Positions 6,644 to 50,509 of a stretch of 64,000 nt of DNA are shown piece by piece (within the stretch, counting starts at the first letter, position 1; each line of letters starts with the position of its first letter). Under the pieces are notes generated by a model. The model had not been told where the DNA came from. It saw nothing but the letters and a program-made list of their open reading frames with translations, and did no database searches. The DNA lies in contig JAJYXU010000062.1 of assembly GCA_021801605.1 (NCBI GenBank), forward strand, positions 1 through 64,000, read 5' to 3'. The translations under genes were made by a program, and so were the position numbers. Origin of the DNA: Bacteroidota bacterium (GTDB lineage Bacteria; Bacteroidota; Ignavibacteria; Ignavibacteriales; Melioribacteraceae).

Positions 6644-7972
6644 ATGAAAAAATATTATTACAAATGTTTCGATTGCGGAAAGAGTTACGACAAAGATGAG
6701 ATTGAAAAGGATCTGGTCTATCTTTGTCCAGCTTGCCGTAAAGTTGAAAAGAACCAGCCGTTGCGCGGAGTTCTTCTTATCGAGTATGATTATGAATGGA
6801 TTAAAAAAAATCATACAAAAGAGGAATTCCTAAAATTATCACCCGGAAAATTTTGGCAGTATGGTTATTTATGGCCGCTTGAGTTTAAGTCTTGTCATTC
6901 TGAGGAACAGAGTGACGAAGAATCTCATAAAAATAAAGATAGAGATTCTTCATTCGTCCTTTCAGAACTCACTCAGAATGACATGAATAAAATTTCACTT
7001 CCTTCAGATTGTTTTCTGAAATTTACTTTCGAAGGGAATAACTTTTTTGTTCTTGATGATACTCGCAATCCAACCTTATCGTTCAAAGACAGAGCTTCAA
7101 GTTTAGTTGCTCTTAAAGCCTTGCAATTAGGAATAAAAGAAATTGCCGCGGCATCAACCGGCAACGCTGGATCTTCTCTTGCCGGAATCTGTGCAAGGTT
7201 AGGATTGAAGTCGGTAATTTTTGTCCCCAAAAATATTCCTGAAGCAAAAAGGATTCAGATTCAATCTTACGGCGCTGATATCTTTTTGGTTGACGGTGAT
7301 TATGATTTGGCTTTTGATACATGTCTTGAAATCTCAACTCAAAAAAAATGGTACAACAGAAACACTGCTTATAATCCTCTTACTATCGAAGGAAAGAAAT
7401 CCGCAGCTTTCGATCTATTCATTTCAACTAATGGAAAAATGCCAGATATTATTTTTGTGCCAACTGGAGACGGAGTAATTTTAGCTGGACTTTACAAAGG
7501 TTTGTGCGAACTTAAAGAACTTGGATGGATAGAAAAAATCCCTTCATTAATTGCGGTTCAGGCAGAAGGTGGTAATGCGGTTGTTAGATATTTAGCGGAT
7601 CAAAAGTTTGAGTATAAACCGGCAAGCAGTATTGCGGATTCAATCTGCGCGGGCTCTCCAAGATGTTTATATATGGCTTTCGACGCCATAATAAAATCGA
7701 ATGGCAGTGCGATTGAAGTGAGCGACGAAGAGATTCTGGATGCTCAAAAATATGTTGCTCAAAATTATGGAATTTTGTTGGAACCCTCTTCATCGTCAAC
7801 ATTTGCCGCATATAAAAAATTCCTTAACTCAAATAACTTGAATGGAAAAACAGCGCTTTTACTTTTTACCGGTAATGGGTTAAAAGATACATCAGCGCTT
7901 AAATATTGGAATCATTCTGTTGAGGTTTTGACAACAGAGCAGATTTATAAAAAATTTAATTCATCTATCTAA
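6644..7972 (+). CDS. Threonine synthase-like PLP-dependent lyase with N-terminal zinc ribbon; in the cluster position of YgeX
   Basis: CFDCGKSY...LCPACRK zinc ribbon; NPTLSFKDRA PLP-lysine motif; ASTGNAGSSLAG; in-frame repeat insert CHSEEQSDEES. Confidence 0.75.
   Translation: MKKYYYKCFDCGKSYDKDEIEKDLVYLCPACRKVEKNQPLRGVLLIEYDYEWIKKNHTKEEFLKLSPGKFWQYGYLWPLEFKSCHSEEQSDEESHKNKDRDSSFVLSELTQNDMNKISLPSDCFLKFTFEGNNFFVLDDTRNPTLSFKDRASSLVALKALQLGIKEIAAASTGNAGSSLAGICARLGLKSVIFVPKNIPEAKRIQIQSYGADIFLVDGDYDLAFDTCLEISTQKKWYNRNTAYNPLTIEGKKSAAFDLFISTNGKMPDIIFVPTGDGVILAGLYKGLCELKELGWIEKIPSLIAVQAEGGNAVVRYLADQKFEYKPASSIADSICAGSPRCLYMAFDAIIKSNGSAIEVSDEEILDAQKYVAQNYGILLEPSSSSTFAAYKKFLNSNNLNGKTALLLFTGNGLKDTSALKYWNHSVEVLTTEQIYKKFNSSI
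6894..6982. repeat. Palindromic repeat inserted in frame within a coding sequence
   Basis: gtcattctgaggaacagagtgacgaagaatctc...gagattcttcattcg...actcagaatgac: long imperfect inverted repeat translated as CHSEEQSDEESHKNKDRDSSFVLSELTQND. Confidence 0.8.
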
Positions 7973-28885: not shown

Positions 28886-28960
28886 TTCTTGCTCATGCTC
28901 TTGATCTTGACCATAATCTTTTTAATAGAGCAAGATTAAGAATAAGATCATGAGCAAGAG
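28886..28960. repeat. ctcatgctcttgatcttg / aagatcatgagcaag inverted repeat
   Basis: CTTGCTCATG (28888-28897)/CATGAGCAAG (28949-28958); related copies at 36661-36682 and 44551-44577. Confidence 0.65.
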
Positions 28961-36698: not shown

Positions 36699-36925
36699 GG
36701 TTCTAAAAAACTATCTTTTGTAAAAATTTAACGCAGAGAACCTACCTGCCGGTAGAGTCTGTTGCAGAACTCGAGTATGTCATTCACACTTAAATTTAGA
36801 ATTAGTGCGATTATTAGCATAGAGATTCTTCATTTCTCCGGCTAATGCCGGATTCATTCAGAATGACAAGTTCTGCAACACGCTCGGTAGGCAGGCGCAG
36901 AGAATATTGAGGTTTTTAGAACCAC
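36699..36925. mobile_element. TIR element ggttctaaaaa...tttttagaacc with secondary repeat(s) inside
   Basis: Ends match the 50242-50332 copy; centre replaced by GTTGCAGAACT...GTCATTC / GAATGAC..AGTTCTGCAAC. Confidence 0.65.
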
Positions 36926-36993
36926 CCTAAAGTAAAAAAAGTTTTGTTTTTAATCTTACTCTTACCCATAATCTTTTTATTAACAACTAACCG

Positions 36994-50241: not shown

Positions 50242-50332
50242 TGGTTCTAAAAACTATCTTTTGTAAAAATTTAACGCAGAGAACGCAAAGAATATGCAAA
50301 GTCCGCAGAAAATATTGAAGTTTTTAGAACCA
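50242..50332. mobile_element. TIR element tggttctaaaaact...agtttttagaacca enclosing an aacgcagagaacgcaaag repeat
   Basis: Perfect 14-bp TIRs 50242-50255 and 50319-50332; second copy at 36699-36925. Confidence 0.75.
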
Positions 50333-50509
50333 GACTTAAGTTGTTATTTTGTAAAAGGGGGTGAAAGTTTTTTATTATCCTTCATAACAAACCGAAAATA
50401 ATTCATGCCTACCTAAAGTTTCTTATCGGATATTTAACTATTCTGTTTTAGATTGCTGCTGCAAAATTCGAAATTATTTTTCTCAACCCGTCAACTACCG
50501 GAGGTTGGT

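Follow-up and report, generated by a model that had tools for sequence, protein, structure and literature searches.

An in-frame REP dimer in a threonine-synthase-like gene of Melioribacteraceae-like Ignavibacteria and its probable spread by short-tract exchange

A palindromic REP dimer lies in frame inside the gene of a threonine-synthase-like PLP enzyme in the window, the whole stretch of 64,000 nucleotides analysed here. The gene belongs to amino-acid biosynthesis, and the bacterium is an uncultured member of the Ignavibacteria. The dimer has probably settled in a linker of the protein, where it is tolerated as a near-neutral disordered loop, and has been passed on by short-tract exchange. 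According to this proposal, a genus of Melioribacteraceae-like Ignavibacteria would have received a REP dimer of the CGTC/TGTC-tagged type in the length-variable linker that joins the zinc-ribbon-like N-terminal part to the PLP core, either as an addition or in place of about 10 codons. One frame of the element would have been open across the junctions, so that the gene survived and the peptide came to be carried as a predicted disordered loop. From then on the insert would be near-neutral protein baggage, shortened in some lineages without loss of the frame, as in G003, and homologous exchange between lineages would have moved it together with about 30 nt of downstream flank, as the synonymous divergence (dS) and the tree conflict described below suggest. 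Rickettsia is the best-known source of palindromic repeats that lie in frame; the present case belongs to another phylum. The features are listed in Table 1.

Table 1. Positions of the host gene, the REP dimer and its parts, the adjoining flank and the intergenic copy in the window
Feature	Position	Strand	Basis
Host gene, threonine-synthase-like PLP enzyme, 442 aa	6644..7972	+	ORF, PALP profile match
REP head-to-head dimer, in frame, 89 bp, encodes (C)HSEEQSDEESHKNKDRDSSFVLSELTQND	6894..6982	+	Pattern match, fold; absent in G001/G002/G006/G007
Left REP arm GTCATTCTGA-GGAACAGAGTGAC-GAAGAATCT, with T at 6893 before it (TGTC tag)	6894..6925	+	Exact pattern match
Inter-arm spacer, 17 nt, loop of the large hairpin	6926..6942	+	
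Right REP arm, inverted	6943..6982	-	Exact pattern match
Host coding flank, 30 nt, sharing the insert's history; likely part of the exchanged tract	6983..7012	+	8 informative sites with G003 and G010, 0 with G006 and G001
Intergenic copy, subfamily A (116-bp dimer), with one arm intact and the other lacking about 27 bp	36819..36867	-	

The host ORF is open and intact and retains the PLP-lysine motif NPTLSFKDRA. Its protein matches the PALP profile PF00291 with an E-value of 3.5e-63, scores below the NCBIfam thrC cut-off, and has threonine synthases as its nearest solved structures. The invariant residues, a set defined from 35 orthologs, are retained, and the closest relatives of the protein come from metagenome-assembled contigs labelled Melioribacter, Ignavibacteriales and 'Bacteroidetes'.

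The original prediction had described an 89-bp imperfect inverted repeat at 6894-6982, placed in frame between the N-terminal region and the NPTLSFKDRA core, and the sequence, the coordinates, the frame and the position in the protein were all borne out. The dimer reads GTCATTCTGAGG...CTCAGAATGAC, and codons 6893-6982 encode the peptide CHSEEQSDEESHKNKDRDSSFVLSELTQND within the 442-aa ORF. The 89 nt fold with -31.9 kcal/mol (z -5.6; none of 200 shuffles was equally stable), and the dimer plus its flanks reaches a z of -5.3. Only two of the six frames of the element are free of stops. Compared with the insert-free orthologs, the gene has a net gain of about 20 codons, and 89 is not divisible by three; the host linker has therefore lost about 29 nt. 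No target-site duplication is visible at the insert in the ortholog alignment, the Rfam search gave no match near any family's gathering score, and looking for the arm sequence itself in the literature brought up nothing relevant.

The ortholog alignment characterized the insert as a lineage-restricted copy, in frame, of a dispersed palindromic repeat. The full dimer occupies the same codon in the genome of the window (G000) and in G010, and a shortened dimer is found there in G003; the three are 83-88% identical and have identical ends. G001, G002, G006, G007 and the other genera have no insert, and none of these orthologs encodes a peptide of equal length in its place, their linkers being about 20 residues shorter than that of G000. 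Three further genomes, G005, G008 and G009, hold a single arm at the same codon, of another subtype than that of the dimer. The G005 arm is identical at 31 of 34 positions to a REP elsewhere in the G005 genome, and the arms of G008 and G009 are identical to that REP at 26 of 34, compared with at most 19 of 34 in other orthologs and a maximum of 20 in codon shuffles. Being as long as the outgroup sites, these three sites look empty, a reading ruled out by the match between the G005 arm and a REP in the same genome. When the insert peptide was used as a query, it was found only in G000, G003 and G010; G008 gave a weak partial match in a 46-aa frame. At one codon, relatives have no insert, the complete dimer, its shortened form or a lone arm, and they show that the insert is old and wears away while the gene stays intact. 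Additionally, REP arms lie directly 5' of the orthologous start codon in G003 (C115:25631-25703) and G001 (C3:2369802-2369833), so that the locus was hit more than once.

The history of the insert differs from that of the gene around it. Among the carriers, dS is 0.15-0.31 in the insert versus 1.6-2.5 in the rest of the gene. The nearest relative of G000 over the gene is G006, which has no insert; the rest of the gene groups G000 with the insert-free G006 and G001 and rejects a clade of G000, G003 and G010 (AU p 1e-72). The neighbouring carbamoyltransferase-like gene likewise groups G000 with G001. Downstream of the insert, about 30 nt of host flank are identical at 29 of 30 positions between G000 and G003. 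Over the first 90 nt past the insert, informative sites join G000 to G003 and G010 by 9:2, whereas further on the ratio is 3:63 (Fisher p 7e-8). On the left side, where the sites stand at 6:10, the exchanged tract shows no clear edge, and for a 60-nt flank alone the grouping of G000 with G006 and G001 is not firmly rejected (AU p 0.076). Short-tract recombination between lineages appears to be the best-fitting and simplest reading of how the insert spread, to judge from these alignments.

Strict vertical descent from one ancestral insertion, with a constraint on DNA or RNA structure preserving the similarity, would agree with the presence of a REP at one codon in six species. We consider it quite improbable, as G003 no longer has the hairpin (z -1.2) and the folds of the monomers are not more stable than those of shuffled sequences. 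The G003 palindrome is broken, yet its sequence is still close to the others, and therefore structure does not explain the likeness. The absence of the insert from G006, the rejection of a carrier clade and the extension of the similarity into host flank beyond the palindrome also speak against such a descent.

A hot spot, that is, independent REP landings at one codon as a preferred target in an insertion-tolerant linker, is in our estimate unlikely, although several observations agree with it. The arm subtypes at the site differ between the dimer (G000, G003, G010) and the monomer (G005, G008, G009), which makes two separate REP arrivals possible. The linker of an integrase gene likewise holds different repeats, an in-frame arm in G005 and G009 and another repeat-like stretch in G001. 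Furthermore, the same question was left open for RPE-4/6/7 of R. japonica, where orthologs carry different versions at one site and both a 'hot spot' and a 'common origin' were considered (PMC3767692). However, independent landing leaves unexplained the 83-88% identity of the dimers, their shared ends and the common flank. The present case points to short-tract recombination as a third answer besides a hot spot and one diverged insertion, and with it the question becomes testable by ordinary comparative genomics.

A bolder version of the recombination reading would have the exchanged tracts centred on the palindrome itself, with the hairpin as the promoter of its own transfer, perhaps by breakage and gene conversion. 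That coding palindromes spread in this manner, by very short tracts and transposase-free, is a speculation to which we give only a small chance; if true, a palindrome would move between species without a transposase. No linked transposase was found, and REP arms lie near only 1 of the 32 Y1-transposase loci of the genus. RAYT as the mobiliser is unsupported: no RAYT gene flanked by repeats was found, which sets the element apart from the RAYT-mobilised REPs of the GTAG type.

In the predicted protein, the encoded peptide adds about 20-30 residues and is charged and Ser-rich. The AlphaFold model has a mean pLDDT of 90.4, and the only internal residues with pLDDT below 50, 85-100, fall inside the insert, which is predicted to be mostly disordered in an otherwise confident fold. 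Nonsynonymous divergence (dN) among the carriers is 0.12-0.17 in the insert and 0.16-0.21 in the rest of the gene; the dN/dS of the insert, about 0.55-1.0, is a rough value because it rests on few sites (15-18 synonymous). Given the predicted disorder and a dN close to dS, the best reading of the insert is that of a tolerated, near-neutral loop. Selection for an adaptive peptide that gives the enzyme a new property, such as regulation or partner binding, could draw on the charged, Ser-rich composition and on the frame kept in three species. We regard it as very unlikely, for dN in the insert is equal to dS or modestly below it, the segment is disordered in the model, and it has been trimmed or replaced in 4 of the 6 species holding a REP there. 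The possibility of an assembly artefact or a pseudogene comes to mind with a genome in 189 contigs, as repeats can break assemblies, but it is practically negligible: G003 and G010, two separate genomes, have the insert at this codon, an open ORF is kept throughout, dN is far below dS in the rest of the gene, and the invariant core residues are retained.

The dimer belongs to a family dispersed in its own genome and beyond. Each half-palindrome has the fixed ends GTCATTCTGA and GAAGAATCT flanking a variable middle, and arms were searched as exact matches to GTCATTCTGAN{0,30}GAAGAATCT, with the reversed pattern as a control. The 3.24-Mb genome contains 79 exact arms and no match to the control. 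Their context was read in about 870 kb of stretches holding nearly all of these arms, resulting in 39 dimers in head-to-head orientation, the predominant form, besides 21 arms without a partner, some of which (several) are at contig ends. Two subfamilies have recently multiplied, A with a 116-bp dimer (about 18 copies) and B with a 97-bp dimer, both with constant flanks, and the gene-borne dimer lies outside both. Several copies of subfamily B are at contig ends (for example, L118:17-113 and L165:36-70), so the REP of this subfamily probably belongs to a longer element whose many copies break the assembly. Arms are present in 8 of the 12 genomes of the genus; across the 297 genomes of the phylum, 14 from 11 genera contain the strict dimer pattern (control, 0).

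The base of each arm has the form GTC-ATTCT...AGAAT-CT, in which ATTCT pairs with AGAAT, a feature partly inherent in the search pattern. The stem comprises 5 bp, followed by a GA/GA step and a middle of 7-35 nt. A T precedes GTC in 95 of 99 arms of the own genome, recent copies included, and in 57 of 75 arms in the other genomes of the genus; in 42 of the latter 75 the middle forms a hairpin of its own of at least 3 bp. Downstream of AGAAT there is CT, after which C or A is most frequent and not the CCA tail. The loci L231-L278 show constant ends and hypervariable middles throughout the genus, with many small hairpins of unrelated sequence above the GA/GA step.

CGTC-tagged REPs were described by Di Nocera, De Gregorio and Rocco in 2013 from phyla including Chlorobi and Bacteroidetes; intragenic dimers encoding 20-30 aa are among them, and RPE-4 and RPE-6 of Rickettsia conorii were classed with them (PMC3733652). 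The present element shares with this class the GTC-type unpaired tag, of which TGTC is a listed variant, the complementary A-T at stem positions one and two, and the occurrence mostly as head-to-head dimers, mainly intergenic, with no dedicated transposase. It departs from the class in its stem, 5 bp plus GA/GA and a variable upper part instead of 8-9 bp with a loop of 4-5 nt, in a tail other than the usual CCA, and in its occurrence in Ignavibacteria-related genomes. Judged by these features, the element is best described as a REP of a CGTC-like class, somewhat outside the strict consensus, that works like RPE-4/6.

The likeness to Rickettsia palindromic elements claimed in the original prediction held most closely for RPE-4 and RPE-6, which have been classed as CGTC-tagged REPs and have an ATGAC end, and less well for RPE-1 to RPE-3, which enter genes frequently. 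The ATGAC end described for RPE-4/6/7 is found in the element too, a likeness at the level of this motif (PMC3767692). As with RPE-4, RPE-6 and RPE-7, the repeat stands in frame in genes, with different versions among orthologs at one site (PMC3767692, PMC3733652), and as with RPE in general the palindrome is in a gene that has insert-free orthologs. Its predicted disorder also recalls the exposed or disordered regions predicted for those RPE inserts (PMC3767692, PMC3733652; Ogata et al. 2000 and 2002, cited in PMC10969869). Unlike the present genome, Rickettsia has many intragenic copies per genome, and Rickettsia is an intracellular alphaproteobacterium, which the present host is not. Intragenic MITEs such as ERIC and the Coxiella QMITE are also short inverted repeats that create in-frame fusions (PMC10969869, PMC5896051); the element differs from them in having no known-IS terminal repeats and no visible target-site duplication. 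The kind is already known, from intragenic REPs and from Rickettsia RPE-4/RPE-6.

Counting copies inside and outside ORFs placed 1 of the 39 dimers read in about 870 kb of the own genome in a real gene, namely the threonine-synthase-like case. A dimer within a 111-aa ORF was discarded as a second case, the ORF being probably spurious; own-genome matches inside ORFs at three mismatches have the look of chance hits, and where relatives have a REP at the first codons of an ORF (three ORFs), the start site is probably misannotated. Two further in-frame arms were found among relatives, both in variable-length linkers or loops. A tyrosine recombinase gene in G005 (L279) and G009 (L282) has a single in-frame arm in a variable linker, with nearly the same peptide (RDSSPDCIGIR) in both; the same linker has a different repeat-like insert in G001 and none in G000 and G011. 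The other is a secreted-protein-like gene of G010 (L252 1909-3594), where an exact arm, possibly in frame, gives the peptide EILRSAQND; in a variable loop of the secreted-protein domain it stands in for a native stretch that it resembles.

Another copy of the same repeat family had been proposed near 36825-36871. The kinship stands at the superfamily level, as the arm ends are common, but the copy belongs to another subfamily, is truncated and lies inside a larger repeat. This larger repeated element, AAAAACTATCTTTTG ... GTTTTTAGAACCA, occurs at 36706-36933 and 50247-50341; the repeats are nested, with the truncated REP inside the first copy and the second copy without a REP. Finally, positions 28887-28959 hold an inverted repeat of 36 nt (75% complementary) whose arms are 1 nt apart.
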